A stretch of DNA of 64,000 nt, taken from Williamsia muralis NBRC 105860. GTDB lineage: Bacteria; Actinomycetota; Actinomycetes; Mycobacteriales; Mycobacteriaceae. Below, piece after piece: positions 16,859-50,281 of the stretch. The position numbers and the translations under genes were made by a program. Location: NCBI RefSeq assembly GCF_001598915.1, contig NZ_BDAP01000001.1, forward strand, positions 248,001 to 312,000, given 5' to 3'. Below the pieces are notes generated by a model. That model saw nothing but the letters and a program-made list of their open reading frames with translations, did no database searches and was not told where the DNA came from. Numbering within the stretch: position 1 is the stretch's first letter; each line of letters begins with the position of its first letter.

Positions 16859-16875
16859 ATCTAACATCAGTGTCA
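16859..16875 (-). promoter_or_regulatory. Regulon operator A (upstream of livHMG-livF)
   Basis: Read on the minus strand this is TGACACTGATGTTAGAT, matching the island consensus TGAC-N5-TGTCAGA with one change (T for C). It lies 35 bp upstream of ATG 16911 and is almost identical to the site at 24223-24239. Confidence 0.7.
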
Positions 16876-16910
16876 CCTTTGAAAGATCTCCGGTGAGGAA
16901 TGGCGTCACA

Positions 16911-19676
16911 ATGCAGCATCTGGTGTTTTTGCTACTCGGGCTAGGCAACGGCGCGGTTTTCGGCGCTTTGGCACTGGCTGTCGTCCTGACGTATCGCAGT
17001 TCTGGCGTCGTGAACTTTGCGACGGGAGCCATCGCGCTGTACACCGCGTACACGTACGCATACCTACGAGAGGGCGAGCTACTCATCCTCATCCCGGGTC
17101 TGCCGGACTCGATAGATCTCGGCGGGCCGATGGGACTGTGGCCTGCGATGGCGATCTCACTGGTCATCGCCGCGCTTCTCGGCCTGATCCTCTACTTACT
17201 GGTCTTCCGGCCGCTGCGCACCTCGCCGCTCGTGGCGCGGGCAGTCGCGGCGCTGGGAATCTCGCTTCTGATTGCGGGATTGGTTGCCCAAAAACTCGGC
17301 ACTGACCCGATCTCGGTGGATCCGATCTTCCCAGTCGACATCTGGCAGTCCGGTGACCTCCAGTTGTCGGCCGACCGCTTCTACTTCGCGCTCACGATCG
17401 TCGTCCTGGCGATCCTGCTGGCACTCGTCTTCCGCTACACGAAGTTCGGCCTCGCAACACGTGCATCCGCAGAAACCGAGCGCGGCGCCTACGTCAGCGG
17501 TATCTCACCCGACCGGATCGCGGCCTACAACTGGATGCTCAGTTCCGCTGTTGCCGGCCTGGCGGGCATCCTCATCGCGCCCATCGTCCCGTTGGTGCCG
17601 GTTGCGTACACCCTGTTCATCGTCCCGGCCTTGGCCGCAGCCATCCTGGCCCGCTTCGATCTTGTGGTGGTAGCCGTATTCGCCGGCCTGGCGGTCGGAA
17701 TGCTTCAGTCCGAAGCGCAGTATCTGGCAACGAAGTTCGACTGGTTGCCGGCCGCCGGACTGCCCGAACTGGTTCCGCTGATCCTGATCCTGCTGGTGCT
17801 GCTGATCCGTGCCAAGCCCTTGCCGGCCCGCGGTGCGATCATCTTGCAGACCCTTGGACGTGCGCCGAGACCGAATCATGTGGCACCTACCGCCGTTGTG
17901 ATGACGATCGTCGGTGTACTGGCCCTGGTGCTGCTCGACGACCGCATGCGTACCGGACTGATCGTCAGCTTCATCATGGCCATCGTCGCGCTGTCGTCGG
18001 TCGTGGTCACCGGCTACGCGGGACAGGTCTCCCTGGCCCAGTTGACCATCGCCGGTGTCGCGGGCTTCCTGCTCGGTCCGATCGCCAACACATTCCATCT
18101 GCCCTTCCCGATTGCTCCGATCGTGGCGGCGCTGTGTGCGGCCGCACTCGGTGTCCTGATCGGGCTGCCCGCCTTGCGAATTCGAGGACTCACCGTTGCG
18201 GTGGTGACGCTCGCGATGGCATTCGCGGTCGAGGCCATCTGGTTCCGGAACGTCGACATCGTCGGCGCCGAGGGTGTCAAGGCACCGAAGCCCAGCCTGT
18301 TCGGTTGGGATCTGGGTATCGGTCAAGGACTGGACTATCCGCGAGTCACCTTCGGGGTGCTTGTGCTCCTGGTCTTCGTCGCCGTCGCCGTCTTCGTCGC
18401 CTTGTTGCGGCGTAGCCGCCTCGGTACGGAAATGCTTGCTGTGCGAGCTAACGAAAGATCTGCTGCCGCGGCCGGTGTCAGCGTTGTCCGGGTGAAGATC
18501 CTGGCGTTCGCGATCGGTGCATTCATCGCCGGCATCGGTGGTTCCCTGCTCGCCTATCAACAGCAGACGGTGACCTTCGATTCCTATGCGGCGTTGGGCG
18601 GTGTGGCTCTCTTCGCCACCGTCTATCTGGCGGGCATCACGTCCGTGGCCGGCGGCATCCTGGCGGGCGTCACAGCAGCCAACGGGCTCTTGTTCATCTT
18701 CGTCGACGAGATGTGGTCGGTGAGTGGGTGGTACGTCGTCATCTCCAGCGTGCTGCTGATCTTCACGGTGATCATCAACCCCGAGGGCATCGTCGGACCG
18801 GCCCATACGTTGCTGGCGAATCGTCGCGCTGCGTCACTCAAAGCGAAGGCCAAAGCGGTGTCGGCTGCGGACGCGGCCACCGATGTTCCCGCCAAGGACC
18901 TGTCGGCCGAGCCCCGGGTCTTCGACCGCACAGCGCTGCCGGAGCTCTCCCTCACTGATGTCTCGGTGAAATACGGTGGTGCGGTTGCACTGTCAGACGT
19001 GTCGCTGCAGATCCCCAAGGGTGCACTGGTGGGGCTCATCGGCCCGAACGGCGCCGGCAAGACGACGCTGATGGACGCGATCACCGGATTTGCCGACTAC
19101 ACCGGCGATGTAACCCTGGCCGGTGCCTCGATGGGCGGGCTCGCACCGCACAATCGGATCAGGGCAGGTCTCGGTCGAACCTTCCAGGCGATCGAACTCT
19201 ACGACGACCTCAGTGTGACCGAGAACGTCAAGGTCGGCCGCACCGCCGCGGTGCACCGTCCGGACGTCAAGGCCGAACACAGCGACATCGGCCATCTGAC
19301 CGAGGTGTTCGAACTTCTGGGCATCGGCGACATCAGTGAGCGTCCGGCCGGCGAATTGTCTCAGGGGCAGCGCCAACTGGTATCGATCGCTCGCGCTCTG
19401 GCCGGTTCACCCAACCTGCTTTTGCTCGACGAGCCGGCCGGTGGATTGGACAGCACCGAAAGCCGTTGGCTGGGAGAACGATTGAGAAGGATCTGCGACA
19501 GTGGGATCACAATTCTCATGGTCGATCACGATATGGATCTGGTTCTGAACATCTGCGATGAGGTCCACGTCCTCAACTTCGGTGAGCTCATCGCCTCCGG
19601 AACCCCAGCGGAGATCCGGGCGAACCGGACCGTCGCGACCGCATACCTAGGAAGAGAGGCTCAGGTTCATGGCTGA
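16911..19676 (+). CDS. LivH-LivM-LivG fusion: branched-chain-type ABC importer, two permeases plus ATPase in one chain
   Basis: 921-residue three-part protein. Residues ~1-305 are a LivH permease (opening LLLGLGNGAVFGALALAVVL), ~325-640 a LivM permease (VVTGYAGQVSLAQLTIAGVA), a linker of about 40 residues rich in Ala, Lys and Asp follows, and ~670-915 are a LivG ATPase with Walker A GPNGAGKTT (~711), signature LSQGQRQ (~817) and Walker B LLLLDEPAGGLD (~835). These are normally three proteins. ATG 16911 is used; GTG 16893 is possible. LivF follows with an 8-base overlap; the lipoprotein receptor is at 20816-22084. Such importers take up amino acids, but also aromatic, steroid or amide compounds in catabolic islands. 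Confidence 0.93.
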   Translation: MQHLVFLLLGLGNGAVFGALALAVVLTYRSSGVVNFATGAIALYTAYTYAYLREGELLILIPGLPDSIDLGGPMGLWPAMAISLVIAALLGLILYLLVFRPLRTSPLVARAVAALGISLLIAGLVAQKLGTDPISVDPIFPVDIWQSGDLQLSADRFYFALTIVVLAILLALVFRYTKFGLATRASAETERGAYVSGISPDRIAAYNWMLSSAVAGLAGILIAPIVPLVPVAYTLFIVPALAAAILARFDLVVVAVFAGLAVGMLQSEAQYLATKFDWLPAAGLPELVPLILILLVLLIRAKPLPARGAIILQTLGRAPRPNHVAPTAVVMTIVGVLALVLLDDRMRTGLIVSFIMAIVALSSVVVTGYAGQVSLAQLTIAGVAGFLLGPIANTFHLPFPIAPIVAALCAAALGVLIGLPALRIRGLTVAVVTLAMAFAVEAIWFRNVDIVGAEGVKAPKPSLFGWDLGIGQGLDYPRVTFGVLVLLVFVAVAVFVALLRRSRLGTEMLAVRANERSAAAAGVSVVRVKILAFAIGAFIAGIGGSLLAYQQQTVTFDSYAALGGVALFATVYLAGITSVAGGILAGVTAANGLLFIFVDEMWSVSGWYVVISSVLLIFTVIINPEGIVGPAHTLLANRRAASLKAKAKAVSAADAATDVPAKDLSAEPRVFDRTALPELSLTDVSVKYGGAVALSDVSLQIPKGALVGLIGPNGAGKTTLMDAITGFADYTGDVTLAGASMGGLAPHNRIRAGLGRTFQAIELYDDLSVTENVKVGRTAAVHRPDVKAEHSDIGHLTEVFELLGIGDISERPAGELSQGQRQLVSIARALAGSPNLLLLDEPAGGLDSTESRWLGERLRRICDSGITILMVDHDMDLVLNICDEVHVLNFGELIASGTPAEIRANRTVATAYLGREAQVHG

Positions 19677-20433
19677 CTTGAAACTGGCTGACAAAGCGAA
19701 CCACCCGAACGACCCAGGGCCCACTGCGGTTCCGATCCTGGAATGCCGCAACGTTTCCGCCGGCTACGGCTCGGTCAAGGTGGTCCGCGATGTCAGCTTC
19801 TCGCTGCAGGCCGGGTCTGTCCTCGCAATCCTCGGCCCGAACGGTGCCGGCAAGTCGACACTGATGAACACTCTGGCGGGATTGCTGCCGCGAAAGGGCG
19901 GCGACGTAGTCGTCGAGGGCAAGGAATTGCGGAGTGGCCGGCCCGGAGAGGCCAATCGTCGCGGACTGGTGCTGGTTCCGGATGACCGCGCGCTCTTCAC
20001 GTCGATGACGGTGCGCGAGAACCTGTCCATCGCGAAGCGATCCGGTGGTCTCAGCGTTGATGCGGCGATGGAGATGTTCCCGGCTTTGGCGAAGCGGATC
20101 AGGGTCAATGCAGGGTCGCTGTCCGGTGGCGAGCAACAGATGCTGGCCGTGGCTCGCGCCCTGACCCAGAATCCCAGAGTTCTCCTCATCGATGAGATGA
20201 GCATGGGGCTGGCACCGGTCATCGTCGAGGAGTTGCTGCCGATCGTCCGCCGGATCGCCGATGAGACCAATGCTGTTGTGGTGCTGGTGGAACAGCACGT
20301 CCAGTTGGCCCTCGAGGTTGCCGATGAGGCGTTGGTCATCGTCCACGGTGGTGTCCGGCTCAGCGGCTCCGCAAGCGATCTCGCAAAGAATCCCGAGCTC
20401 CTGGAGCAGGCCTACCTCGGAGAGGCTGTCTGA
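19669..20433 (+). CDS. livF: LivF-type ABC transporter ATPase
   Basis: 254-residue cytoplasmic ATPase. Walker A GPNGAGKST is at about 57, signature LSGGEQQMLAVARAL at about 151 and Walker B VLLIDEMSMGLAP at about 172, the last being diagnostic of LivF. It overlaps the fused LivHMG gene by eight bases and completes the importer with it. The operon ends at the strong stem-loop 20446-20486. Confidence 0.93.
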   Translation: MADLKLADKANHPNDPGPTAVPILECRNVSAGYGSVKVVRDVSFSLQAGSVLAILGPNGAGKSTLMNTLAGLLPRKGGDVVVEGKELRSGRPGEANRRGLVLVPDDRALFTSMTVRENLSIAKRSGGLSVDAAMEMFPALAKRIRVNAGSLSGGEQQMLAVARALTQNPRVLLIDEMSMGLAPVIVEELLPIVRRIADETNAVVVLVEQHVQLALEVADEALVIVHGGVRLSGSASDLAKNPELLEQAYLGEAV

Positions 20434-20445
20434 CCTTTCGACACG

Positions 20446-20486
20446 AAGGCCGGCCATCCTCCGCGCAGCGGAGGGTGGCCGGCCTT
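20446..20486. terminator. Terminator after livF
   Basis: A 19-bp stem (20446-20464 with 20468-20486), AAGGCCGGCC... closing with ...GGCCGGCCTT around a GCA loop, 13 bases after the livF stop codon. No long T-run follows; the strength of the stem supports termination. Confidence 0.75.
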
Positions 20487-20506
20487 GTTGTGCTCGCACG
20501 TCCTCC

Positions 20507-20742
20507 GCCGACCGTGCCAATCCAACCGTCGACCGTGCCGAAAGTACTGCCGATCGTGCCCTACCAACCATCGAGTGTGCCGATGTCGCCGCCGAGGCTT
20601 CTCCTGGTGCGATCTACTCGTCGGTGAGTGTGCAAAGTCGGGGTGTCGTCGGCGCGATGGGCACGCTCGGCGGCAACGAGGGCACGCTCGATGGTTGGTA
20701 GGGCACGCTCGGCGGTGATATCGGCACGGTCGATGGCGGGGT
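20507..20742. repeat. Convergent 21-bp repeat element, copy 1 (4 direct + 4 inverted units)
   Basis: Four degenerate 21-bp units in direct orientation (20507, 20528, 20549, 20570; pattern G-Y-CGA-Y-CGTGCC plus nine variable bases) are followed after ~68 bp by four units in inverted orientation (20659, 20680, 20701, 20722; pattern GGGCACG-CTCGRYGG). The unit at 20549 plus the next (CGTGCCCTACCAACCATCGA) is the reverse complement of 20681-20705 apart from minor changes. The element sits between convergent livF and the lipoprotein gene, flanked by two ordinary terminators. It resembles the element at 41730-41931. Confidence 0.75.
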
Positions 20743-20762
20743 GGGACATTAAGCGACAACGA

Positions 20763-20798: not shown

Positions 20799-20815
20799 GA
20801 GTTCGAGCTATTCGA

Positions 20816-22084: not shown

Positions 22085-22188
22085 GTTGTGCTCCTGAGGT
22101 CGGGACGAAAACTGCGCCCGCACGTTGGTTGTTGCGTGAGCGTCGTATCGGATTCTGCGGGCAGTCACCCGAATCGGACTTATTCGGA

Positions 22189-22205
22189 GACGCAGTGTCA
22201 GATAC
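22189..22205 (+). promoter_or_regulatory. Regulon operator C2 (upstream of the binding-protein gene)
   Basis: GACGCAGTGTCAGATAC differs by one base from the site at 47215-47231 (GACGTAGTGTCAGATAC). It is 105 bp upstream of the lipoprotein ATG. Confidence 0.6.
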
Positions 22206-22392
22206 GGACCCCTGAATCGTGGACTATGACCGGCGTCACTCCTACTGTTTGACGACAATGTTATCGAACCGTGATCTAAAGGAATGCCAGAATTTGGACT
22301 GCGGCGGCGATTTGGGCATGTGGCAACGGCGGAAGGCGTATCGCACCGATCGTTCACGCTGCGTCGGCGGAAGTCTAGAGCGGGACCACAGA

Positions 22393-22411
22393 TATCCGTC
22401 AGTGTCAGATA
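22393..22411 (+). promoter_or_regulatory. Regulon operator C (second site before the binding-protein gene)
   Basis: TATCCGTCAGTGTCAGATA contains the conserved half AGTGTCAGATA, with outer TATC/GATA symmetry. It lies 30 bases from the fprB stop codon and 309 bp upstream of the lipoprotein start. The 22206-22392 interval between the two sites holds nothing else I recognise. Confidence 0.5.
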
Positions 22412-22440
22412 GCGACAATTCGAACGCGACTGGTGGGTAG

Positions 22441-24120: not shown

Positions 24121-24136
24121 GAGTGTCGCCCTCCAG

Positions 24137-24154
24137 TATCTGACAGTTACGTAC
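24137..24154 (-). promoter_or_regulatory. Regulon operator M (upstream of fprB)
   Basis: TATCTGACAGTTACGTAC on the plus strand; its reverse reads AACTGTCAGATA, the conserved half-site. It is 17 bp upstream of the fprB GTG and overlaps the promoter region. The other half is weaker (GTAC instead of TGAC). Confidence 0.55.
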
Positions 24155-24222
24155 ACTTTGAGTGTGGATACCTCGATCTGTCAAGTGTGTAAGACATGAC
24201 TCTCGACTAGTGTGGGCAACTG

Positions 24223-24239
24223 ATCTAACGTCAGTGTCA
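24223..24239 (-). promoter_or_regulatory. Regulon operator B (upstream of the extradiol dioxygenase)
   Basis: ATCTAACGTCAGTGTCA; on the minus strand TGACACTGACGTTAGAT. It differs by one base from operator A at 16859. It lies 59 bp upstream of ATG 24298. Confidence 0.68.
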
Positions 24240-24297
24240 CTATTGGTTCACTTGCCGCGACAGTCAGGCGGCCGAACGTGTAATGACAAGGAGTGTC

Positions 24298-25158
24298 ATG
24301 ACCGAACAGAACCGGCTGGTGGTGTGCGCAAGTCACAGCCCCGGCATGGAACGCGACACCGACCATGTCTTCGGATCCGAGTTCCGGGCCGGTCTGGCGG
24401 ACGCGCGCGCCCTGGTGACCGAGTTCGACCCCGACTTCGTCATCTTGTTCGGCGGCGACCATCGTCGCGCTTTCCGGCACGTCGTCCCGACCTTTGCTGT
24501 TGCCATGACGGCGTCGATACTCCCTGAAGGGGGCCACGCCGAAGGAACTCTTGACATCCCGGTCGACGTCGCCAAAGACCTTGCGGCCCATCTGCTGGAC
24601 TCCGAGTTCGACATCTCGATCTGCCGGGATGTGGGCCTCGACCACGCCTTCGCGCAACCGCTGCGAGACCTCACCGGAGATCTGAACGCGTACCCGGTCA
24701 TCCCGGTGCCGATCAACTGCGCGACGGGGCCGTTGCCGTCGGCTGCGCGGGTCCTTTCATTCGGAGAAGCTGTCGGACGATTTCTCGACACCCTCGATGC
24801 TCGCGTGCTCGTCATCGGAACCGGAGGGTTGTCGCACTCCCCACCCAGCCTTGAACTCGATGCCTACGACATCAGCGACGAGGAGCGTCGCCGCGTGATC
24901 GCCGAGGGCGCCGCGGCTGCACGCAAGAAGATAAAGCCGCAGTGGGACAAAGCGTTCCTGAACGCGCTGGCCGAGTGGGATGGTGCCGAACTCGCCTCAC
25001 TCACCGACGACGCGCGCGCCCAGGCCGGTGTCGGTGCCAACGAGGTACGAACCTGGCTCGCCGCGGGAGCCGCGGGCGGTGGCAAACCGCTCGACGCGAT
25101 CGTTTACCAGCCGGTAGAGGAATGGATCACCGGGATGGGGCTCGCCGTGTCGCGGTGA
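24298..25158 (+). CDS. Class III extradiol ring-cleavage dioxygenase (LigB/MhpB-like)
   Basis: 286-residue protein of the LigB superfamily, closest in layout to 2,3-dihydroxyphenylpropionate 1,2-dioxygenase. N-terminal CASHSPGM supplies the first iron-ligand histidine (His13); DFVILFGGDHRRAF (~55-68) supplies the second; VGLDHAFAQPL and VIGTGGLSHSPP match MhpB in position. The C-terminus ends in an EWITGMG motif like MhpB. ATG 24298 is chosen over 24283 because AAGGAG ends four bases before it. It cleaves a catechol-type ring with Fe(II) and O2, though no catechol-forming hydroxylase is evident nearby. Operon with the following SnoaL-like gene. Confidence 0.88.
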   Translation: MTEQNRLVVCASHSPGMERDTDHVFGSEFRAGLADARALVTEFDPDFVILFGGDHRRAFRHVVPTFAVAMTASILPEGGHAEGTLDIPVDVAKDLAAHLLDSEFDISICRDVGLDHAFAQPLRDLTGDLNAYPVIPVPINCATGPLPSAARVLSFGEAVGRFLDTLDARVLVIGTGGLSHSPPSLELDAYDISDEERRRVIAEGAAAARKKIKPQWDKAFLNALAEWDGAELASLTDDARAQAGVGANEVRTWLAAGAAGGGKPLDAIVYQPVEEWITGMGLAVSR

Positions 25159-29666: not shown

Positions 29667-29796
29667 ACAGACTTCCAAATCTCTCGTGTGACGTGGACTC
29701 CACGTACAGGACCTCAGGACCGCCTCGACGACGGATGTAGTCGAATGTTCCGGCAGAATGACGTGGGTCACTTCTAGGTGAAACCATAGTAGATCA

Positions 29797-29810
29797 TCTG
29801 ACACATTGTC
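29797..29810 (-). promoter_or_regulatory. Regulon operator N (upstream of the acyl-CoA ligase operon)
   Basis: TCTGACACATTGTC; on the minus strand GACAATGTGTCAGA, with GACA/TGTC symmetry. It lies 131 bp before ATG 29666 in the 345-bp divergent gap shared with the FadE34-like gene. Confidence 0.55.
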
Positions 29811-29943
29811 TACGCGTTGGCCGAATCAGTTCCCCTTGGGACTGCTGACGACCATTTATGCAGTTCAGAACCAACTATCTGGACTGCGCCAGCCTCCTGG
29901 ACGGTTTGTAGCCTCGTTCTACAGCGAGCCTTGAATATCCGTG

Positions 29944-29961
29944 ATCTGACATCTAGGGTCA
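29944..29961 (-). promoter_or_regulatory. Regulon operator O (upstream of the FadE34-like gene)
   Basis: ATCTGACATCTAGGGTCA; on the minus strand TGACCCTAGATGTCAGAT, the six-base-spacer form also seen at 35732 and 37857. It lies 50 bp upstream of ATG 30012. Apart from sites N and O, I see nothing else in 29667-30011. Confidence 0.68.
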
Positions 29962-30011
29962 GTTGCGTATGCCGAAAGGCGAACGAGTTCGCAAATCGAA
30001 AGGTGGCCGAG

Positions 30012-33448: not shown

Positions 33449-34219
33449 CTACTTCGGCTGGAACCGCAACGCGCCGTCGATGCGGATGACTTCACCGTTG
33501 AGATAGTCGTTCTTGGCGATGTGCTCGACCAGAGCCGCGTACTCCGACGGGCTCCCCATCCGGTTTGGGTAGGGAACCGTTGATCCCCAGTGTTTTTCGG
33601 CCTCTTCGCGCTCCATCTGGAACGCCGGGGTGAAGAAGGTACCCGGAGCAATGGCCATCACACGGATGCCCTGCTTCGTCAGGTCGCGGGCGGCAGGCAG
33701 TGTCAGTCCCACGACACCACCCTTGGCGGCCGAGTAGGCCGTCTGGCCGATCTGTCCCTCGAACGCGGCGATGCTTGCGGTGTTGACGATGACGCCACGG
33801 TTGCCGACTTCGTCGGGCTCGTTCTTGGACATCGCGGCAGCGCCGAGACGCAGCACGTTGAAGGTCCCGTTTAGGAAGAGGTTGATGTACCACTGGAACT
33901 GCTCGAACGAGGCCGGCTCACCGTCGCGACCGACGACGCGTGACGCGCCGGCCGAACCGCCGTGGGCATTGACGACGATACGAAGAGGCGCAAGCTCATT
34001 GGCGACCGCGAGCGCCGCGTTGACACTGCCCTCGTCGAGCACGTCGGTGCTGACGTACCGTACGTGATCGCCGAGCTCGACTTCGAGGGCCTTGCCTTTC
34101 TCGTCGTTGAGGTCGGCGATGACGACGGAGGTGCCAGCGGCGGCCAGGGTGCGAACCGTGGCCTCACCGAGACCGCCGGCGCCACCGGTGACGAGCGCGG
34201 ATGCGCGACTGATATCCAT
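33449..34219 (-). CDS. SDR family 3-hydroxyacyl-CoA dehydrogenase-like
   Basis: 256-residue Rossmann oxidoreductase. NAD-binding motif [16 protein letters not shown], the [23 protein letters not shown] segment with catalytic YSAAK, and [11 protein letters not shown] closely match type-10 17beta-HSD / 2-methyl-3-hydroxyacyl-CoA dehydrogenases. It probably oxidises a 3-hydroxyacyl-CoA (possibly 2-methyl-branched) with NAD+. The ATG at 34219 follows a GGAAAC-containing leader. Single-gene unit, with regulon site L 75 bp upstream. Confidence 0.9.
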
Positions 34220-34293
34220 CTGGAGTTTCCTCTCCTGCCTCGGCACTTCGATCGAGCGCCGACGTGGCTTATAGAACCGAACTCCATCAAAGA

Positions 34294-34310
34294 TGACATA
34301 ATTGTCAGAA
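34294..34310 (+). promoter_or_regulatory. Regulon operator L (upstream of the SDR)
   Basis: TGACATAATTGTCAGAA, an excellent match to TGAC-N5-TGTCAGA with symmetrical TGACA/TGTCA core. It is 74 bp upstream of ATG 34219 and also within 100 bp of the 3' end of the double-TetR gene. Confidence 0.7.
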
Positions 34311-34405
34311 GCAATCAAGTTCCGAACTGGCCAATACTCAAATATCCTGCAGGACACAGGCTATGGCAGCAGAGCGCCAACCGCCGGTCGTCAGATGGAA
34401 ATTAC

Positions 34406-35740
34406 TCAGGTCAGGTGGGTGAAGAAGCCACGTCTGATGCAGGCGATCAAGAGATCGGCGGTCGCGTCTTCCGACAAGGGCGGTGAGAGTTCTTGTGCAG
34501 CTTGCGGAATCCTGGCCACCAGTGAGCGGAAGATGATGGCCGCGACGACCGGATCGAACGGGTAATCCCGTTTCCTCGTGACGAGGTCGGCGACCATCGC
34601 TGAATCCATGGCCGCCTGTCCGCAAATGCCCAGCTGGGTGACGATGTCGTTGTCCGTGGTCTTTTCGGTCCAAGCGCCGATGGATCCCGAGTAGTACGTC
34701 GTGAAGGCGGTGAAGCTGCTGATCCACGCACGGAGTTCTGTGGTGTCGGGGTCAGTGAGATCGATCTTGCTCAGGCGTTCGGCGTGTTCGATTGCGTGCC
34801 CGGTGCCCTCGATGCTGATGGCGACGAGGAGATCCTGCTTCTCGCTGAAGTACTTGTAGAAGGTGCCGCGGGCGAGGCCGGCCTCCTCTACGATGTCGTC
34901 GACGCTCGTGCGGTGGTAGCCCTTGAGCCGGAACTGCTTGGCGCCGGCGTCAACCAACGTGCGGACGGTTTTGATTGCGCGCTTGCTCAGATTCGCCGTC
35001 CGGTCCTCCGTCGACAGGCCGGCGGTCGACGGAAGCGCAGGTACTTTGATTACCGGGTCTTCTGGCGGTGTCTCCAACGGAATGCTGTTCAGAACGGATG
35101 ACGGAGTCTCGGGAAACAAAAGCAATTGAAGATAGACGGACAATGAGTCGACCACGGCCTGTGTGTCTCGGCCGTAGGTTCGATCGGTGGCGAGGAACAG
35201 ATTGATGCGGTGCACGATCGCGATCATCGCCATCGCTGCTATCCGCGGCTCGAGTCCCTTCAGTTCGGACTGCTCGAGGCGCGCGGTAACAGTTCGGGTG
35301 TATCCGGACATGAAGGTGTCGATCTGCGGTCGGACGGAGGTATCCGCCATGGCAACGCTCGTCCACTGCACGAACATCGTCGAGTAGCGATCGAAGACCC
35401 AGCTCCACTCGCCGAGCCACCAGTTGAGGTTGTCGAAACCGACTTTGGTGGGACCCAGCGGGCCAATACGCCGCGCCACCCGGAAGAGTGCCCGTCCACA
35501 GACATCGAGCAGTTCCAGAAAGATCTCGTCCTTGCCGGGAAAGTATTGATACAGCGTCGCTCTAGAGATGTCGGCTTCCTTGGCGATCGCGTCGACCGAG
35601 GTGTTGAAGAACCCCACACGACCGAACAATTCCAGGGAAACGTCAACGATCTTGGTGCGCGTGTTAGCGCCCCGGCTACCCACATCGGGGCTGGACGGGC
35701 CGTAGCTGGCTCGGCGTGTAATCGGCGTTGTATCTGACAC
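34406..35740 (-). CDS. Tandem double-TetR regulator, Mce3R-like
   Basis: 444-residue regulator with two complete TetR units in one chain. Helix-turn-helix 1 is at ~26-78 (IAKEADISRATLYQYFPGKD) and helix-turn-helix 2 at ~258-310 (IVEEAGLARGTFYKYFSEKQ); each is followed by a helical effector domain (~80-215 and ~315-440), joined by a proline-rich linker (~210-245). M. tuberculosis Mce3R has this same rare plan. Translation starts at GTG 35740, inside a copy of the island operator (35732-35749), so it should repress itself. It is the natural candidate to bind all 16 sites in the island. As a built-in heterodimer it could read two unequal half-sites, which is what the sites show. Confidence 0.9.
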   Translation of the reverse strand: MSDTTPITRRASYGPSSPDVGSRGANTRTKIVDVSLELFGRVGFFNTSVDAIAKEADISRATLYQYFPGKDEIFLELLDVCGRALFRVARRIGPLGPTKVGFDNLNWWLGEWSWVFDRYSTMFVQWTSVAMADTSVRPQIDTFMSGYTRTVTARLEQSELKGLEPRIAAMAMIAIVHRINLFLATDRTYGRDTQAVVDSLSVYLQLLLFPETPSSVLNSIPLETPPEDPVIKVPALPSTAGLSTEDRTANLSKRAIKTVRTLVDAGAKQFRLKGYHRTSVDDIVEEAGLARGTFYKYFSEKQDLLVAISIEGTGHAIEHAERLSKIDLTDPDTTELRAWISSFTAFTTYYSGSIGAWTEKTTDNDIVTQLGICGQAAMDSAMVADLVTRKRDYPFDPVVAAIIFRSLVARIPQAAQELSPPLSEDATADLLIACIRRGFFTHLT

Positions 35741-35749
35741 TGGAGGTCA
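35732..35749 (-). promoter_or_regulatory. Regulon operator D (over the start codon of the double-TetR gene)
   Basis: Minus strand TGACCTCCAGTGTCAGAT; the GTG start codon (35740-35738) lies within it. Six-base-spacer form. Binding here would block transcription initiation or early elongation of the regulator's own gene. Confidence 0.72.
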
Positions 35750-35777
35750 GCCTAACTGCTGATTGCCGTGATTGACG

Positions 35778-37791: not shown

Positions 37792-37856
37792 GCGATTGCC
37801 TTTCCGGGGCCCGAACAGCCGCCGATAAACTCGGAAGCGAACGCCCTTTCTTAAAG

Positions 37857-37874
37857 TGACCAACACTGTCAGAA
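37857..37874 (+). promoter_or_regulatory. Regulon operator I (between the kinase-MaoC operon and the LLM gene)
   Basis: TGACCAACACTGTCAGAA, six-base-spacer form. It lies 65 bp before ATG 37791 (minus) and 7 bp before ATG 37882 (plus), so occupancy would affect both divergent units. Confidence 0.68.
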
Positions 37875-37881
37875 TAGGGCT

Positions 37882-38964: not shown

Positions 38965-38996
38965 AACAAGGGCGGTGAGCGATCTTTGCTCTAGAG

Positions 38997-39013
38997 TGAC
39001 ATTACTGCCAGAA
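38997..39013 (+). promoter_or_regulatory. Regulon operator J (upstream of the aldehyde dehydrogenase)
   Basis: TGACATTACTGCCAGAA, one base off the conserved half (TGCCAGA for TGTCAGA), exactly as at 50265. It is 69 bp upstream of GTG 39083. Confidence 0.62.
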
Positions 39014-39082
39014 TTGATCCGATTCGATGGGCGACCGCTGCATTTTGCTCCGACGCTCGCGGAGAAGAATGAAAGGTTGCAC

Positions 39083-43178: not shown

Positions 43179-43264
43179 CACACCGACCACGGCATTGTTC
43201 CTTTCGGTCCAGACTTCGATGGAACGGGTCGCGACCGAGTGTCGTCGTGTGCCCCATCGACCAG

Positions 43265-43282
43265 TATCTGACTGAGTGTACA
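43265..43282 (-). promoter_or_regulatory. Regulon operator G (upstream of the CaiB gene)
   Basis: Plus strand TATCTGACTGAGTGTACA; resembles site M at 24137 (TATCTGAC...GTACAC). The GTCAGATA half is intact, the other half is weak. It is 87 bp upstream of ATG 43178. Confidence 0.48.
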
Positions 43283-43394
43283 CATAAAATTGTCCGATTT
43301 GTGTCGCGCATCACTGCGAATTCAGTGCCTGATTTTGCAGGTGTAAGGACTATTTCGCTATGGCAGGGCCGCTGGCGCACGAATCGAGGACAAG

Positions 43395-43414
43395 CTATCT
43401 GACGCTATGACCAT
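43395..43414 (-). promoter_or_regulatory. Regulon operator H (upstream of DUF35-thiolase)
   Basis: Plus strand TATCTGACGCTATGACCATA: GTCAGATA half intact, partner half TCAT. It lies 91 bp before ATG 43505. Confidence 0.5.
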
Positions 43415-43417
43415 AAG

Positions 43418-43504: not shown

Positions 43505-43936
43505 ATGTCAACTGAGACGGGCCGGTCAACTGAGACGGGCCGGATGCTTCCGGAGGTGACCTTGGAATCCCAGGCCTTCTGGACCGGTGGATTCAAAGGC
43601 GAACTCCGCATCTACCGATGCCAGGACTGCCGTGGCTGGATTCATCCACCGGTGGGCGCCTGCTGGCGCTGCCGGAGCCGGAATGTCGGACCTGAAGCGG
43701 CGTCCGGGCGCGCGCGGATCGCCTCGTTCACCATCAACCACCACCCGTGGCTCCCGGCCTTCCCTCCGCCTTATGTCATCGCGGTCGTGGAACTCGACGA
43801 TCAGCCCGACGTGCGGCTGACGACGTGCATCGTCGAGATCGACGTCGATGCAGTCGAGATCGGGATGGCGGTCGAGGTCGTCTTCGAAGAGCATGACGAC
43901 GTGGCCCTACCATTCTTCAGGCCGGTGGCAGCATGA
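43505..43936 (+). CDS. DUF35 OB-fold/zinc-ribbon protein, partner of the thiolase-like aldolase
   Basis: 143 residues. A rubredoxin-like zinc ribbon (CQDCRGWIHPPVGACWRC, four cysteines) precedes an OB-fold with VIAVVELDDQPDVRLTTCIV. Such proteins bind SCP-x-type thiolases and present the acyl-CoA, as the C-terminal part of ChsH2 does for Ltp2. The N-terminus has a short repeated STETGR. It overlaps the next gene by ATGA, fixing a stoichiometric pair. Confidence 0.9.
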   Translation: MSTETGRSTETGRMLPEVTLESQAFWTGGFKGELRIYRCQDCRGWIHPPVGACWRCRSRNVGPEAASGRARIASFTINHHPWLPAFPPPYVIAVVELDDQPDVRLTTCIVEIDVDAVEIGMAVEVVFEEHDDVALPFFRPVAA

Positions 43937-45117
43937 GCTTCGTAGACGACAAGGCCGTCATCAGCGGTATCGGCCAATCACAGATCGGCAGGCGGATCGG
44001 TCGCTCGGGCATCGATCTCGCGCTCGAGGCCACCGAACGGGCAGTGGCCCATGCGGGTCTGTCGTTCGACGACATCGATGGCGTCGCAAGCTATCCCGGT
44101 CCGGTCCTGGCCGAGGGCGGTTTTGTCGGAGCGACTACGCACGATGTTCGTGACGCATTCGGTCTCAAGACCAAGTGGCATGTCAGCGGTGTCGAGACCT
44201 CCGGGCAGATCGGCACACTTCTCGACGCCGCGGCAGCAATCTCGTCCGGCCGGGCCACACACGTCCTGTGCTTCCGGTCCGTGTGGGAGGCAACCGCTCA
44301 GGCATCGGGGCGCGCTGCCGCGCTGACCGGAAAGGCGATGCGGGCATCAGGCCACGCGGAGTTCCGGATGCCATTCGGCGCTGCCTCTCCCGCGAACTGG
44401 ATCGGAATGTACGCCCAGCGCTACATGTACGAGTTCGGTCTGACGCGTGAGCATCTCGGCAAGTTGGTGATCAACGCCCGCAACAATGCCGCATTGAATC
44501 CGAACGCGATCTACCGCAAGCCGATGACGATGGACGACTACCTGAATGCCCGCATGATCTCGACGCCGATGGGCCTCTACGACTGCGATGTGCCGTGCGA
44601 CGGCGCGACGGCGATCATTCTGTCCCGGCGGGAAGAGACCGGAGGGCTCGCCCACACGCCGATCACCATCGAGGCGGCCGGTTCGGCCCTCTATGAGCGC
44701 CATACCTGGGATCAGCGTACGGATTTCACGACGATGGCATCACACGATGCGGCGGCGTCGATGTGGGACAGCACCGAACTCACTCCCGCCGACGTCGACT
44801 TCGCAACCCTCTACGACGGATTCAGCTACCTGTGTTCGCAGTGGATCGAAGCACTGGGTTTCGCCGACCACGGCAAGGTCGGTCAGTTCCTCGACGACGA
44901 GGGTTACTACGCGATCGACGGCACGCTGCCGATCAACCCCCATGGCGGACAGCTCTCCGCCGGACGTTTGCACGGGTACGGATTCCTTCACGAAGCCTGC
45001 ACTCAACTCTGGCGAGAGGCGGGGGACCGGCAGATCAAGAAAGATCTGTCGGTCGCAGCGGTAGGTATCGGTGGCGGTCCCGAGGCGGGCTCGATGCTGC
45101 TGCGTCTGGACGCCTGA
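43933..45117 (+). CDS. SCP-x thiolase-family protein, Ltp2-like retro-aldolase
   Basis: 394-residue thiolase-fold protein. Family segments: VISGIGQSQIGRRIGRSG, VCGA-type site replaced by VETSGQIGTLLDAAAAI, EHLGKLVINARNNAALNP, YDCDVPCDGATAIIL, and NPHGGQLSAGRLHGYGF. The nucleophilic cysteine of true thiolases is absent, and the HGYGF tyrosine is placed as in Ltp2, an aldol lyase that removes propionyl-CoA from tertiary 3-hydroxyacyl-CoA. With the DUF35 partner, retro-aldol cleavage is the best call. Followed by a strong terminator. Confidence 0.87.
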   Translation: MSFVDDKAVISGIGQSQIGRRIGRSGIDLALEATERAVAHAGLSFDDIDGVASYPGPVLAEGGFVGATTHDVRDAFGLKTKWHVSGVETSGQIGTLLDAAAAISSGRATHVLCFRSVWEATAQASGRAAALTGKAMRASGHAEFRMPFGAASPANWIGMYAQRYMYEFGLTREHLGKLVINARNNAALNPNAIYRKPMTMDDYLNARMISTPMGLYDCDVPCDGATAIILSRREETGGLAHTPITIEAAGSALYERHTWDQRTDFTTMASHDAAASMWDSTELTPADVDFATLYDGFSYLCSQWIEALGFADHGKVGQFLDDEGYYAIDGTLPINPHGGQLSAGRLHGYGFLHEACTQLWREAGDRQIKKDLSVAAVGIGGGPEAGSMLLRLDA

Positions 45118-46266: not shown

Positions 46267-46288
46267 CGCCTTACCTACTTTCGTCGAG

Positions 46289-47080: not shown

Positions 47081-47099
47081 TGTCAATCGCCTTCCGTAG

Positions 47100-47116
47100 T
47101 GACATTGATGTCAGAC
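47100..47116 (+). promoter_or_regulatory. Regulon operator F (upstream of SDR-hydrolase)
   Basis: TGACATTGATGTCAGAC contains a perfect 14-bp palindrome, TGACATTGATGTCA, the most symmetrical of the set. It is 19 bp upstream of GTG 47080. Confidence 0.7.
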
Positions 47117-47213
47117 GGAAACGTTACTAGACCAAGTCGAAGGCCAGCGCATTTCCCGAAAAGACAAGAAAATTGCTGGTAGAGCTTGACAGTTGTGATC
47201 GCTGTCACTAGCG

Positions 47214-47231
47214 TGACGTAGTGTCAGATAC
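47214..47231 (+). promoter_or_regulatory. Regulon operator E (upstream of the amidohydrolase)
   Basis: TGACGTAGTGTCAGATAC, a shorter-spacer form. It lies 69 bp before GTG 47301 and is followed by the gene's leader. A TTGACA with an inverted CTGTC lies just upstream (47187-47208) and may be the -35 region. Confidence 0.65.
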
Positions 47232-47300
47232 ACGGGAACGGCGCCGAAATCGCTGGTGTCCCGTTTCTTTTTCAGCCCGTCATACGTAGCAGGAGGCGTT

Positions 47301-48533
47301 GTGCCGCTCCAGGATTACATGCATTTGATTTCAGTCGATGATCACTTGATCGAGCCGCCGGATGTCTGGTCCACCCGGTTGCCGCAGAAATTCCTCGACC
47401 AAGGTCCCCGGATCGTCGAGATGGACATGAGTGAACAGCACGGGGATGAGGGCCTTTCGGCCATCCTGCTCGATGCGGCGCGCGGTGAGGGTGGCCAGGC
47501 TGCTCAGAAGAAGATCGCCGAGGTGTGGAGCTACGAGGGCCGCATCTATCCGAACATCGGTCTGAACGCGGTCGCCGGAAAGAAGCCACAGGAGTACGGC
47601 ATGGATCCGACGCGCTACTCGGACATGCTCCCCGGCTGCTACGACCCCAAGGCCCGAGTTGCCGACATGGACATCGACGGTGTGCAGGCCGCTTTGTGCT
47701 TCCCGTCGTTCCCGCGCTTCGCCGGCACGGTGTTCCTCGAGGGCAAGGACAAGGAGCTTGCTCTGCTGTCAGTGAAGGCCTGGAACGACTTTCACCTCGA
47801 TGAGTGGGCGGCAGCGGCTCCCGACCGGATCATCCCGCTGATCATTCTGCCCCTGTGGGATCCAGAGGCCGCTGCAGCCGAGATCTACCGCTGTGCGGCC
47901 AAGGGTGCGAAGGCCATCACGTTCCCGGAAAATACCGTGTCACTGGGTCTTCCGTCCTTCTACACCGATCACTGGGATCCGGTGTTCCGTGCGGCCGAAG
48001 AAACCAATCTGCCGCTGTGTATGCACTTCGGGTCGTCGGGCCGCGCTCCGATCACCTCGCCCGAGGCGCCGATGGCGGTGATGATCGCACTGTTCGGAAC
48101 CAACTCGATGTACGCAACGGCCGACTTGCTGTTCTCGCCGGTCTTCTACAAGTTCCCGAACTTGAAGGTTGCTCTGTCCGAGGGTGGGATCGGTTGGATG
48201 CCGTACCTGCTAGAGCGGATCGACCTGACGTGGGAGAAGCACCGCTGGTACCAGAACGTCAACAAAGAGGTCCGTCCCTCGGATCTGTTCCGGTCGAACA
48301 TCTATGGCTGCTTCATCGATGACCACGAAGGTGTGGCCCGTCGCCACAAGGTCGGCATCGACAACATCACCTGGGAATGCGACTACCCGCACTCGGATTC
48401 CAACTGGCCCAACAGTCGGCGGTACACGGAGAAGCTCCTCGCCGAGGTCCCCGATGACGAGGCACATAAGATCGTCGAACTCAACGCGCGCAAGTTGTAC
48501 AACTTTCCGCGCGTCGAGGCCGCGGCGCTGTAA
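47301..48533 (+). CDS. Amidohydrolase-2 family metal-dependent hydrolase/decarboxylase
   Basis: 410-residue TIM barrel of the ACMSD-like group. It starts MHLISVDDHLIEPPDVW, with the D-x-H metal motif, followed by a long insertion, ARVADMDIDGVQAALCFPSFPRFAG, NLPLCMHFGSSG (metal histidine), LKVALSEGGIGWMPYLLERID and ITWECDYPHSDSNWPNS (catalytic Asp). Members hydrolyse C-C or C-N bonds or decarboxylate. GTG 47301 follows AGGAGG. In this island a ring- or chain-cleavage hydrolase role is possible. First in an operon with a 68-residue protein and an SDR. Confidence 0.88.
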   Translation: MPLQDYMHLISVDDHLIEPPDVWSTRLPQKFLDQGPRIVEMDMSEQHGDEGLSAILLDAARGEGGQAAQKKIAEVWSYEGRIYPNIGLNAVAGKKPQEYGMDPTRYSDMLPGCYDPKARVADMDIDGVQAALCFPSFPRFAGTVFLEGKDKELALLSVKAWNDFHLDEWAAAAPDRIIPLIILPLWDPEAAAAEIYRCAAKGAKAITFPENTVSLGLPSFYTDHWDPVFRAAEETNLPLCMHFGSSGRAPITSPEAPMAVMIALFGTNSMYATADLLFSPVFYKFPNLKVALSEGGIGWMPYLLERIDLTWEKHRWYQNVNKEVRPSDLFRSNIYGCFIDDHEGVARRHKVGIDNITWECDYPHSDSNWPNSRRYTEKLLAEVPDDEAHKIVELNARKLYNFPRVEAAAL

Positions 48534-48544
48534 GGATCTCGGAC

Positions 48545-48751
48545 ATGGCCCACGGAAAAGACATCGATGCAGCGGACTGGATCGATCAGGACCTCCTCAC
48601 CCGCGAAGAATCCCGGGACCGTCTCGATGAGGAGATCGAGTTCGAGCGCAACAAGCTGAAAGAGCTCGAATCTGTGCCCAGCAGTCAGGATTCGCTCGAC
48701 CTGACGAAGCGAAGGCTGATCGCCATGGAGAATTTGAGAGACTCTCTATGA
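48545..48751 (+). CDS. Small coiled-coil protein of unknown function
   Basis: 68 residues: an acidic N-terminus followed by a charged helix, EESRDRLDEEIEFERNKLKE, and a second helix LTKRRLIAMENLRDSL. It lies 11 bases after the amidohydrolase and overlaps the SDR by ATGA, so it is real and translated. Probably a helical-hairpin adaptor or dimer; no family recognised. Confidence 0.75.
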   Translation: MAHGKDIDAADWIDQDLLTREESRDRLDEEIEFERNKLKELESVPSSQDSLDLTKRRLIAMENLRDSL

Positions 48752-49551
48752 CTACACAGGGTTCGCGTCTGAACGGCAAAGTTGCACTGGTCTCCGGGTC
48801 AACCAGGGGTATCGGACGTTCCATCGCCCAGCACTTCGCGGCAGAGGGAGCCAAGGTGGCCGTCACCGGCCGAACGGTGGAGCGCGGCAACAAGGTCGTG
48901 AAGTTCATTCGCGACGCCGGTGGCGAGGCCGAGTTCTTTCCGCTCGACGTCACCTCTGAGGACAGCGTGCGGAGCACGATCGATGCAGTGGTGTCCCGTT
49001 TCGGTGGTCTCTCGACTCTCGTCAACAACGCGGCTCCGACCGACGTGGTCGCCACGACGGTGAAGCCGTTGCACGAGTACTCGACTGCCGAGTGGGACTC
49101 GATCATGACCGGGACTCTCACTGGAAATGTGTTCTGGGCATCGAAATACGCATGGCCGCACCTGGTGTCGGCGGAAGGCGCGTCGATCTTGAACATCTCG
49201 TCGGGGCAGGCGATCGCAGGCTTCAAGGGTTTCGGGGCCTACGGAGCAGCAAAGTCAGCGGTGGCGAGCCTGACGCGTTCGCTCGCGGTCGAGGGTGGTC
49301 CTGATGGCATTCGGGCGAACTGCATCTTGGTGGGCCGAGTGGTCTCCGGACGTGGAGACTCCGGTCATCACACCGGTGGCGGCCGGCTCACCCGTATCGG
49401 GAATCCGATGGACATCGCTTATGCGGCAACCTATCTGGCCTCTGACGAGGCGGCGTTCGCGACAGGCTCGATGGTTACCGTCGACGGCGGATTCTCCATC
49501 AACGGCGATGCGGTATCCGACGCGGAAGCTGCGGTGTTCGCAGCCAACTGA
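48748..49551 (+). CDS. SDR family oxidoreductase
   Basis: 267 residues. ALVSGSTRGIGRSIAQHFA, TVERGNKVVKF, LVNNAAPTDV, NISSGQAIAGFKGFGAYGAAKSA with catalytic YGAAK, and a GSMVTVDGGFSINGD C-terminus. Ordinary length for classical SDRs. Last gene of the amidohydrolase operon. Substrate unknown. Confidence 0.9.
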   Translation: MTTQGSRLNGKVALVSGSTRGIGRSIAQHFAAEGAKVAVTGRTVERGNKVVKFIRDAGGEAEFFPLDVTSEDSVRSTIDAVVSRFGGLSTLVNNAAPTDVVATTVKPLHEYSTAEWDSIMTGTLTGNVFWASKYAWPHLVSAEGASILNISSGQAIAGFKGFGAYGAAKSAVASLTRSLAVEGGPDGIRANCILVGRVVSGRGDSGHHTGGGRLTRIGNPMDIAYAATYLASDEAAFATGSMVTVDGGFSINGDAVSDAEAAVFAAN

Positions 49552-49564
49552 AGGTCGAGCAACA

Positions 49565-50167
49565 TCACCCCGGCAGCCGGCCGATCACGTCGGCTGCCGG
49601 GGTGACTCGCGTCAGCATCGCCAGCATGTTCTGCACCATGTAGTCGTGGCCTTCGGCGGTGGTCCCGGCAGTGCAATCCTCGGCAAGCACGACGTCATAC
49701 CCTCGGTTGACGGCCTCGAGAGCCAGGCCGGGGATCGCGACGTTGGTGGAGATGCCTGCCAGAACCAGGGTCTGAACACGCTGCAACCGCAGCATCGCAT
49801 CGAGATTGGTGCCATAGAACGCCGTCAGGCCGGTGGCCCTCGAGCTGATCAGGTCAGTCGGCTCGGGTCCGAGTTCGGCGGGAATCGCCACGTCCGGGGT
49901 TCCCTCGACCATCATCCGCCCGCGGATGGCGAGCTTTCCGAGGTACGAGTTCGGCAGCATGCCCATTTGATCGACCCGGTGGGCGATGATGCAGTGGATC
50001 ACGGGCAACGAACGCGTGCGAAAGGCGCGGGCGAGTTCTGCCGTGTGCTCGACAAGGTCGCGCGTGGCGGCCTGCTCGGCGAGTCCGGAGAACGCTCCTG
50101 GAGGCGGATCGAGAAGTCCTTGCTGGCATTCGCTGATGACTAGGGCGGGGGCCGCGTATGTGGCCAT
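49565..50167 (-). CDS. Isochorismatase-like hydrolase fold protein lacking the usual cysteine
   Basis: 200 residues. The family core is visible: ALVISECQQGLLDPPPG (usual catalytic Asp position is Glu or shifted), LPVIHCIIAHRVDQ, and LAGISTNVAIPGLALEAVNRGYDVVLAEDCT. In cysteine hydrolases the STNVAI position reads TxxCV; here alanine replaces cysteine. Isochorismatases proper (EntB, PhzD) also lack that cysteine, so vinyl-ether-type hydrolysis or a non-catalytic role is possible. ATG 50167 follows GGAGG. Divergent from the P450 operon across site K. Confidence 0.8.
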   Translation of the reverse strand: MATYAAPALVISECQQGLLDPPPGAFSGLAEQAATRDLVEHTAELARAFRTRSLPVIHCIIAHRVDQMGMLPNSYLGKLAIRGRMMVEGTPDVAIPAELGPEPTDLISSRATGLTAFYGTNLDAMLRLQRVQTLVLAGISTNVAIPGLALEAVNRGYDVVLAEDCTAGTTAEGHDYMVQNMLAMLTRVTPAADVIGRLPG

Positions 50168-50264
50168 TCTTCCTCCGTGTCTCAAGTGACGTGGTAGCCA
50201 GTTGTGTCCAACTACGCCGAGTTGTAATTGAGCGAACCTGCAGTTCAGCGTGGTTGCCAAAACA

Positions 50265-50281
50265 TGACACCAATGCCAGAA
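50265..50281 (+). promoter_or_regulatory. Regulon operator K (upstream of the P450 operon)
   Basis: TGACACCAATGCCAGAA, same TGCCAGA variant as site J. It is 32 bp before ATG 50314 and 97 bp before the divergent ATG 50167. Confidence 0.65.

Follow-up and report, generated by a model that had tools for sequence, protein, structure and literature searches.

The window, the whole 64,000-nucleotide stretch of the Williamsia muralis NBRC 105860 genome analysed here, contains an island of catabolic genes around a gene for a 444-residue protein of the TetR type. The original prediction held that one motif, TGAC-N5/6-TGTCAGA, stands in front of nearly every transcription unit of this island. The predicted operators and the genes discussed below are as follows (match scores in bits; fractions give the core bases kept in the sister species).

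16854–16878, minus strand: operator of the importer operon (16893 onward, plus strand); 24.7 bits; 17/17
16893–20433, plus strand: Liv-type ABC importer genes (Pfam BPD_transp_2, ABC_tran)
22184–22208, plus strand: weak operator, substrate-binding protein; 9.7 bits; 16/17
22273–22297, plus strand: 17th operator, absent from the earlier list and located between 22184 and 22391; 10.6 bits; an 18.5-bit site near the equivalent position of the sister, not alignable
22391–22415, plus strand: weak operator, substrate-binding protein; 12.7 bits; sister counterpart 16.0 bits, not alignable
24133–24157, minus strand: operator, ferredoxin-NADP reductase-like gene; 20.9 bits; 16/17
24218–24242, minus strand: operator, LigB-type extradiol dioxygenase (24283 onward, plus strand); 22.4 bits; 17/17
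24283–25158, plus strand: LigB-type extradiol dioxygenase, 3-carboxyethylcatechol 2,3-dioxygenase subfamily (NF009909, 452.8 bits, cut-off 286)
29791–29815, minus strand: weak operator, CoA-ligase operon; 8.7 bits; 17/17
29939–29963, minus strand: operator (N6), FadE34-like double acyl-CoA dehydrogenase; 14.1 bits; 17/17
34291–34315, plus strand: operator, SDR unit 33449–34357 (minus strand); 25.5 bits; 17/17
34406–35740, minus strand: double-TetR regulator with two TetR_N stretches, the proposed reader of the motif
35727–35751, minus strand: weak operator over the start codon of the regulator; 11.7 bits; 17/17
37855–37879, plus strand: operator (N6), LLM oxidoreductase/APH-kinase-MaoC pair; 21.7 bits; 16/17
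38994–39018, plus strand: operator, aldehyde and NDMA-dependent alcohol dehydrogenases; 25.6 bits; 17/17
43261–43285, minus strand: weak operator, CaiB-type CoA-transferase; 11.9 bits; 17/17
43392–43416, minus strand: weak operator, DUF35-thiolase pair; 12.2 bits; sister counterpart 12.4 bits, not alignable
43505–45117, plus strand: OB_ChsH2_C (DUF35) protein and thiolase (Pfam)
47097–47121, plus strand: operator, SDR/alpha-beta-hydrolase unit (minus strand); 22.8 bits; 17/17
47210–47234, plus strand: weak operator, amidohydrolase operon (47256 onward, plus strand); 11.0 bits; 17/17
50262–50286, plus strand: operator between isochorismatase (minus strand) and P450 operon (plus strand); 22.0 bits; 17/17
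50281–54651, plus strand: P450-ECH-DUF35-SDR-ECH genes behind the 50262 site (Pfam; P450 start and operon predicted)

To score these sites we used DNA from other genomes. At least 44 long orthologues of the regulator are present among the 80 loci listed. In an unbiased count of 7-mers over the non-coding DNA that surrounds 42 foreign orthologues, TCTGACA had the highest z-score (109 occurrences, 7.7 expected), with copies in 38 of the 42 loci. A weight matrix was then iterated at a threshold of 9 bits or more from these 42 loci only; two Williamsia loci (L001 and L002), with a 94% identical regulator, were kept out. The matrix collected 205 sites, and none of the loci was without one. An initial EM motif model, which expanded to 1470 sites, was dropped for this thresholded iteration. 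Alignment A1 and model R1 were built on 60 of 79 reduced sites.

With the foreign matrix we could establish that all 16 coordinates of the original prediction carry a recognizable site (8.7–25.6 bits). Eight positions of the window exceed 18 bits where 0.04 are expected, and 17 exceed 10 bits where 3.3 are expected; the latter comprise 14 of the listed sites, the site at 22273 and two intragenic matches at 15158 (12.8 bits) and 17335 (11.5 bits). Control stretches of the same genome, 400 kb in total, contain no match above 16 bits (best 15.2), and in a model search of the genome all five matches at E ≤ 10 fell at C1:264.9–314.5 kb. The predicted consensus fared less well as a literal pattern. 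Its N5/N6 gap is borne out, but with two mismatches allowed the pattern does not exceed chance (N5, 22 versus 17.3 expected; N6, 18 versus 17.4), and an exact match is present at only 5 of the 16 sites (N5 at 34294 and 47100; N6 at 29944, 35732, and 37857). The exact N6 pattern occurs three times in 5.54 Mb, each time inside the island (reversed pattern: two). Exact TGAC-N5-TGYCAGAW occurs six times in the genome, five of them at C1:243–315 kb and three of these inside the window; with up to one mismatch there are 68 occurrences versus 35 for the reversed control. Support for the motif comes from these exact matches and from the weight matrix.

The operator consists of a loose TGACA half, a gap of 5 or 6, and a strict TG(T/C)CAGA(A/T) half. 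Among 187 anchored sites elsewhere, TGAC is found at N5 in 91, at N6 in 22, and at N4 in one. In the anchored sites, which were seeded on the right half, the outer right half holds 4.72 bits versus 1.28 for the mirrored left. An unseeded check on 47 symmetric TGAC-GTCA cores at gaps 5 or 6 found GA on exactly one outer side in 39, on both in four, and on neither in four. At sequence level the site thus appears asymmetric and oriented, as in Mce3R-type double TetR systems. The 5/6 gap is also present at 38 of 116 anchors in coding stretches as delimited by a rough gene caller; 33 of these are no more than 250 bp away from a gene start, and five are farther off.

Sites also tend to come in pairs. 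Among the 205 sites in other loci we counted 65 neighbor pairs within 260 bp, of which 53 remained after 12 redundant ones were dropped. The two sites share their orientation in 44 of these 53 pairs and in all six pairs of the window. Spacing is 64–98 bp in 35 of the 53 and 85–148 bp in the window, and many sites are single. Helical phasing of the pairs, which are not independent of each other, gives a vector length of 0.41–0.54 at periods of 10.4–11. A search for TANNNT −10 words near the sites was discarded, since these words are confounded by the letters of the motif itself.

The regulator contains PF00440 in two stretches of its 444 residues, both conserved across 23 aligned orthologues, so that a single polypeptide carries two TetR DNA-binding domains. 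The recognition-helix residues are invariant or nearly so over the 23 orthologues, and the two halves differ from each other. An AlphaFold2 model (pLDDT 90, pTM 0.86) has Mce3R (9b7y) as its best PDB match by sequence and by fold. 9b7y_A is the sole whole-chain match among the 50 structures listed, albeit a loose one (TM 0.57/0.64, rmsd 9.3, 16% identity). The protein stays far below the cut-offs of the NCBIfam equivalog model for KstR (41.1 bits versus 280) and of TIGR03968 for the mycofactocin regulator MftR (80.4 versus 224.9). None of the 50 proteins scanned, which lie beyond the window's first 14 kb, has an Mce domain, and no adjacent yrbE3A/mce3 operon was found among them. The GTG start of the regulator falls inside the weak operator at 35727–35751. 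A site of at least 9 bits lies within −260 to +20 of the regulator start in 19 of 44 orthologues versus 10 of 348 control gene starts; the other 25, including all mycobacterial ones, lack such a site. No site lies close to another double TetR encoded in this genome, where the best match scores 10.3 bits.

Since the orthologue loci were fetched by way of the regulator, linkage of motif and regulator in them is given by construction. A test on 81 genomes of the family avoids this problem. For each genome, no more than 100 first-look candidates were scored, under stricter filters. The regulator is present in four genomes, with 5, 6, 6, and 4 motif matches at E ≤ 5. Of the 77 genomes without it, 66 have no match and 11 have one or two, so that three or more matches occur only together with the regulator; these four genomes represent about two lineages (three fall in one genus), and further genes of the island accompany the regulator. 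The operator is common to Williamsia, Gordonia, Rhodococcus, Nocardia, Mycobacterium, Nocardioides, and Streptomyces, in part on plasmids, and distant relatives occur in Actinomycetota MAGs (L039–L043), one labeled Acidimicrobiaceae. The co-occurrence in 81 genomes, together with the orthologue loci of other genera, supports the predicted link between the motif and the 34406–35740 protein.

The predicted absence of sites from 0–16 and 51–64 kb holds above 13 bits, the best match there being the one at 15158. The same prediction described a single, sharply bounded regulon. A single operator motif is what we find, but sharp bounds are not: past the right end there are two further sites, at window coordinates 66441 (2.4 kb away) and 69112 (5.1 kb away), the former with the best score of all (27.5 bits). 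The first precedes a pair of acyl-CoA dehydrogenase genes, the second a meta-cleavage operon. Behind the 69112 site follow an alpha/beta hydrolase, an HpaH-type hydratase (416.5 bits, cut-off 351.5), and an HpaI-like aldolase that stays below its cut-off (346.6, cut-off 368.8). A stretch without strong sites separates the island from these two sites, and the regulon is discontinuous because a site-free cluster with its own TetR (54.7–59.5 kb) intervenes. Left of the window there are two candidate matches at −4961 and −15431. The substrate of the pathway is named neither by the Rhodococcus plasmid neighbors nor in the papers listed.

Taken together, these data make it very probable that the 34406–35740 double-TetR protein uses the motif as its operator; it would read oriented sites and most likely represses. 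By analogy with Mce3R, a single chain would form an internal pseudo-dimer whose two DNA-reading helices differ, and would therefore read an oriented site, each half of the protein presumably contacting one half-site. Bound to sites that sit at gene starts or a short distance upstream, often in directly repeated pairs, the protein most likely blocks transcription. It would be released by an intermediate of the pathway, which is probably an aromatic acid or a CoA thioester. Import and CoA activation would then be induced, together with side-chain beta-oxidation or retro-aldol steps and with LigB-type meta-cleavage. The oriented operator, its use in direct repeats, and the double-TetR nature of the regulator point beyond the original prediction.

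The sites could instead belong to more than one regulator, with the double TetR reading the strong N5/N6 sites while the degenerate or N4-like ones at 22184, 29791, 43392, and 47210 serve a second factor or arise by chance. The near-absence of N4 elsewhere speaks for such a division, as do the seven sites at 8.7–12.7 bits (22189, 22393, 29797, 35732, 43265, 43395, and 47214), a range in which control stretches yield about 1–4 matches per 64 kb. These seven were accepted because of conservation and pairing, not on score alone. All have a counterpart in the sister species; the five that can be aligned keep 16–17 of 17 core bases, and six of the seven (all but 35727) have a neighbor of the same orientation within 150 bp. 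Over the 16 of 19 sites that can be aligned (22273, 22391, and 43392 are left out), 269 of 272 core bases are identical to the sister compared with 1351 of 1549 in the flanks. We consider the division unlikely.

Still less probable is that the motif is read by a different island regulator, such as the single TetR at 55703–56470, and that the double TetR has another role. This second TetR gene does lie in the window, and gene linkage alone cannot separate the two candidates, but it has no relative (E ≤ 1e-8) in 44 orthologue loci that keep the double TetR (by construction) and, in 42 of them, the motif. Two Rhodococcus plasmids likewise retain both, and the 55703 gene's own cluster is the site-free one. 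An artefact of promoters or start codons, in which ATG/GTG-TCA-GA(T/A) encodes Met-Ser-Asp/Glu or forms a −35-like element, is hardly credible. At the start of the regulator the right half is indeed start codon plus Ser-Asp, and we accept the artefact as a complication there while rejecting it as a general cause: start codons leave unexplained why TGAC stands upstream at a distance of exactly 5 or 6 bases in 113 of 187 sites, and the control stretches have no strong sites. A promoter element is disfavored by the mixed orientation relative to the gene, which is the same in 45 cases and opposite in 39, where determinable.

A sharp asymmetric operator common to several actinobacterial genera was obtained from sequence alone, and with it a code, open to experimental test, for a pair of dissimilar recognition helices. 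The operator also serves as a genome tag: it located likely pathway genes beyond the visible cluster, namely the acyl-CoA dehydrogenase pair and the meta-cleavage operon, and should aid the search for the pathway substrate. More speculatively, double TetRs might be single-chain repressors of a widespread class that has oriented operators in place of palindromes. Dimers of the regulator would link head-to-tail operator pairs by looping the DNA between them, whole catabolic islands would be controlled in this way, and an operator code shared across genera would mark the catabolic pathway.

KstR and KstR2, the TetR-type repressors that govern cholesterol catabolism, have a single TetR unit each, and their large regulons include FadE, thiolase, CaiB, and P450 genes. 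The regulator described here resembles them in being a TetR-type protein over a large catabolic gene set, and differs by its two TetR units and its oriented operator; KstR and KstR2 motifs are palindromic (PMC4482099). With the Mhp and Hpa pathways the island shares a LigB-type 3-carboxyethylcatechol dioxygenase and, beyond the window's right end, an alpha/beta hydrolase, an HpaH-type hydratase, and an HpaI-like aldolase. Unlike there, the meta-cleavage genes stand amid CoA-thioester side-chain genes with a DUF35-thiolase, a MaoC pair, and a P450. The Mhp and Hpa regulators belong to other families.

Mce3R was the only double TetR found in the literature searched, and a search on TGTCAGA with TetR gave nothing relevant among 15 matches listed out of 1,761. 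Mce3R of M. tuberculosis (cryo-EM 9b7y) combines two TetR units in one chain with an asymmetric operator, binds two 25-bp sites 53 bp apart in regions that contain no direct palindromes, and regulates genes implicated in cholesterol and lipid metabolism; its motif was derived from three mycobacterial species (PMC11667970). The Williamsia protein likewise has two TetR units in one chain and, as far as sequence tells, an asymmetric operator. The Mce3R register of 78 bp, our sum of 25 and 53, compares with the 64–98 bp seen in most pairs here. Unlike that of Mce3R, the present core is quasi-palindromic (TGACA/TGTCA) with one half extended, and the regulon is an aromatic and side-chain catabolic island. 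Further differences are the low identity and the lack of Mce domains in the proteins scanned. The regulator appears, by analogy, to follow the Mce3R paradigm with an operator and a regulon of its own.

We derived the motif from loci other than our own. From a scan of genome contigs the best 80 of 140 loci were taken; 44 of these (L001–L044) carry a long orthologue of the proposed reader of the motif, the 444-residue protein encoded at window position 34406–35740 (−). After exclusion of the two Williamsia loci, 42 loci remained for motif derivation. In their non-coding DNA the highest z-score of an unbiased 7-mer count belongs to TCTGACA (109 occurrences vs 7.7 expected, in 38 of 42 loci). An iterated position weight matrix (PWM) seeded on TGTCAGA yielded the consensus AagTGACAttAaTGTCAGAATa, with 205 sites at or above the threshold of 9 bits; every locus has at least one, and four (L009, L040, L042, L043) have a single one. 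Among 187 non-coding TG[TC][CT]AGA anchors, TGAC precedes at a gap of 5 in 91 cases, 6 in 22, 4 in one and 0 in two, and at no other gap within 0–15. In stretches called coding by a rough gene caller, 38 of 116 anchors show gap 5 or 6. Of these 38, 33 have a gene start no more than 250 bp away and five do not, so most are probably operators beneath misdrawn starts.

When applied to the window, which contributed nothing to the matrix, the PWM found all 16 sites listed in the original prediction (8.7–25.6 bits), while the literal consensus proposed there, with two mismatches allowed, occurs at chance level. Aligned on the right half, the 16 places show a strong TG(T/C)(C/T)AGA(T/A) and a looser TGAC on the left. 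Eight window positions exceed 18 bits, compared with 0.04 in 100 Markov simulations, and no site above 16 bits was found in 400 kb of control stretches. Because the source loci share ancestry with the window, this recovery measures conservation as well as recurrence. The 5.54-Mb genome contains three exact copies of TGAC-N6-TGTCAGA, each of them within the island, and two of the reversed control. TGAC-N5-TGYCAGAW occurs six times, five of them at C1:243–315 kb, including three in the window (C1:248–312 kb); with up to one mismatch the count is 68, vs 35 for the reversed control.

A whole-genome scan with a sequence-only model built from 60 sites (150 of 497 first-look candidates scored) gave five matches at E ≤ 10; all fall at C1:264.9–314.5 kb, and the best one lies outside the window. 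Two candidate operators were located there.

Candidate operators past the right end of the window
66441: 27.5 bits, ahead of two acyl-CoA dehydrogenase genes
69112: 13.7 bits, before genes for an alpha/beta hydrolase, an HpaH-type hydratase and an HpaI-like aldolase

Between the island and these sites lies a separate cluster (54725–59483, −) encoding an alcohol dehydrogenase (ADH), its own single TetR, an acyl-CoA dehydrogenase, an SDR and an APH kinase, in which the PWM scan found no site. Given the outside sites and this intervening site-less cluster, the regulon is discontinuous, divided into two parts, and its description as sharply bounded does not hold. On the left-hand side, matches of 16.2 and 17.0 bits occur at −4961 and −15431, at genes for an esterase and a 2-oxoglutarate oxygenase. 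Both score above everything in the control stretches; the contig of the sister genome (G040) ends before both. Blocks matching window 3814–6119 and 16809 onwards directly abut in G040, so that about 10.7 kb (6119–16809) at the left regulon edge were either inserted here or lost there. Two symmetric TGAC...GTCA palindromes at 93058 and 93140, beside a gene at C1:341162, are probably operators of another regulator.

The outer right half of the motif carries 4.72 bits vs 1.28 for its left mirror, in a matrix that was seeded on the right half. We therefore collected, without a seed, every symmetric TGAC-GTCA core at both gaps in non-coding DNA (n = 47). GA flanks exactly one outer side in 39 cores, both sides in four and neither in four, where independent sides would predict about 23.5 with GA on exactly one side. 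This observation supports an asymmetric operator. Neighbors within 260 bp form 65 pairs among the 205 sites, 53 of them non-redundant, although orthologous pairs are not independent; 44 of the 53 are co-oriented and 35 are spaced 64–98 bp. By strand count, all six neighbor pairs in the window are co-oriented. Relative to the adjacent gene, 45 sites lie on the same strand, 39 on the opposite one, and 121 are ambiguous or gene-less. The near balance of same and opposite strands disfavors a promoter element as a reading of the motif.

The operator reading is consistent with the distribution of the regulator. In a sample of 81 genomes from the family (regulator E ≤ 1e-60; motif E ≤ 5; up to 100 first-look candidates scored per genome, under stricter filters), the regulator was found in four, which hold 5, 6, 6 and 4 motif matches; three of the four belong to one genus, so the co-occurrence amounts to about two independent lineages. 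Of the 77 genomes lacking the regulator, 66 have no match and 11 have one or two; two congeners without it have none. The regulator is accompanied in this test by further genes of the island. All 17 window sites (the 16 listed and 22273) and both outside sites have a counterpart in G040. Alignment was possible for 16 of these 19 sites, and there the two genomes agree at 269 of 272 core positions, vs 1351 of 1549 in the flanks (Fisher p = 1.7e-11). The site at 35727 overlaps the GTG start of the regulator gene, and at 35727–35751 the right half doubles as its first codons (GTG-TCA-GAT). Sites scoring 9 bits or higher within −260 to +20 of the start occur in 19 of 44 orthologues vs 10 of 348 control starts. 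None of the mycobacterial orthologues has one in this interval; their genes begin with ATGTCCGA, which no longer forms the site.

The candidate regulon comprises an importer, an FprB-like reductase, a LigB dioxygenase, a P450 and an isochorismatase; a CoA ligase, enoyl-CoA hydratases, CaiB transferases, a FadE34-like double acyl-CoA dehydrogenase and a DUF35-thiolase; aldehyde (ALDH) and NDMA-dependent alcohol dehydrogenases; and SDRs, an APH kinase with a MaoC pair, an F420-type LLM protein and an amidohydrolase. These genes point to breakdown of an alkyl- or alicyclic-aromatic acid via CoA thioesters and meta-cleavage. The LigB dioxygenase is probably followed by the enzymes of the 69112 operon. 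Across the 44 loci, the regulator is accompanied by MaoC1 and MaoC2 in 39, by ADH and ALDH in 32 and by LigB in 27. Regulator and LigB are present on five Rhodococcus plasmids, and the two examined, pGD02.2.1 and pDK3 of strain DK17 (of which DK180 is described as a mutant), contain candidate operators too. The R. rhodochrous plasmid pGD02.2.1 also encodes a second, diverged regulator of 439 residues (L123:31634–32953, −), with two TetR-like halves by eye, adjoining the LigB dioxygenase gene.

The regulator contains two TetR_N domains, with recognition helices that are unlike each other (SRATLYQYF and ARGTFYKYF) and each invariant or nearly so in 23 orthologues. Equally conserved is a basic arm ahead of the first TetR unit (residues 9–28, RRxSYGPSSPxVGxRGxxTR), which may read the extended half-site; residues 1–20 are disordered (pLDDT < 50) in an AlphaFold2 model built with these orthologues (pLDDT 90, pTM 0.86). 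A second double TetR of the same genome (L114, C2:608092–609336, −; 414 residues; TetR-like in both halves, by eye and from two matches) has different recognition helices, and no motif was found near it.

Among the matches listed from the open-licence PMC literature, no recognizable description of this regulator or motif appears. By sequence, the regulator comes closest in the PDB to Mce3R, the double TetR regulator of M. tuberculosis, which is also the top Foldseek match (9b7y_A, E = 4.5e-8, TM 0.57/0.64, rmsd 9.3) and the sole chain-covering structure among the 50 listed. Mce3R is reported to recognize two asymmetric 25-bp sites with 53 bp between them, and its homodimer to bind two DNAs (PMC11667970). 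The operator letters looked for do not occur in the text of that paper. The system described here is a form of double-TetR regulation, a known kind, with an operator code and a regulon of its own.
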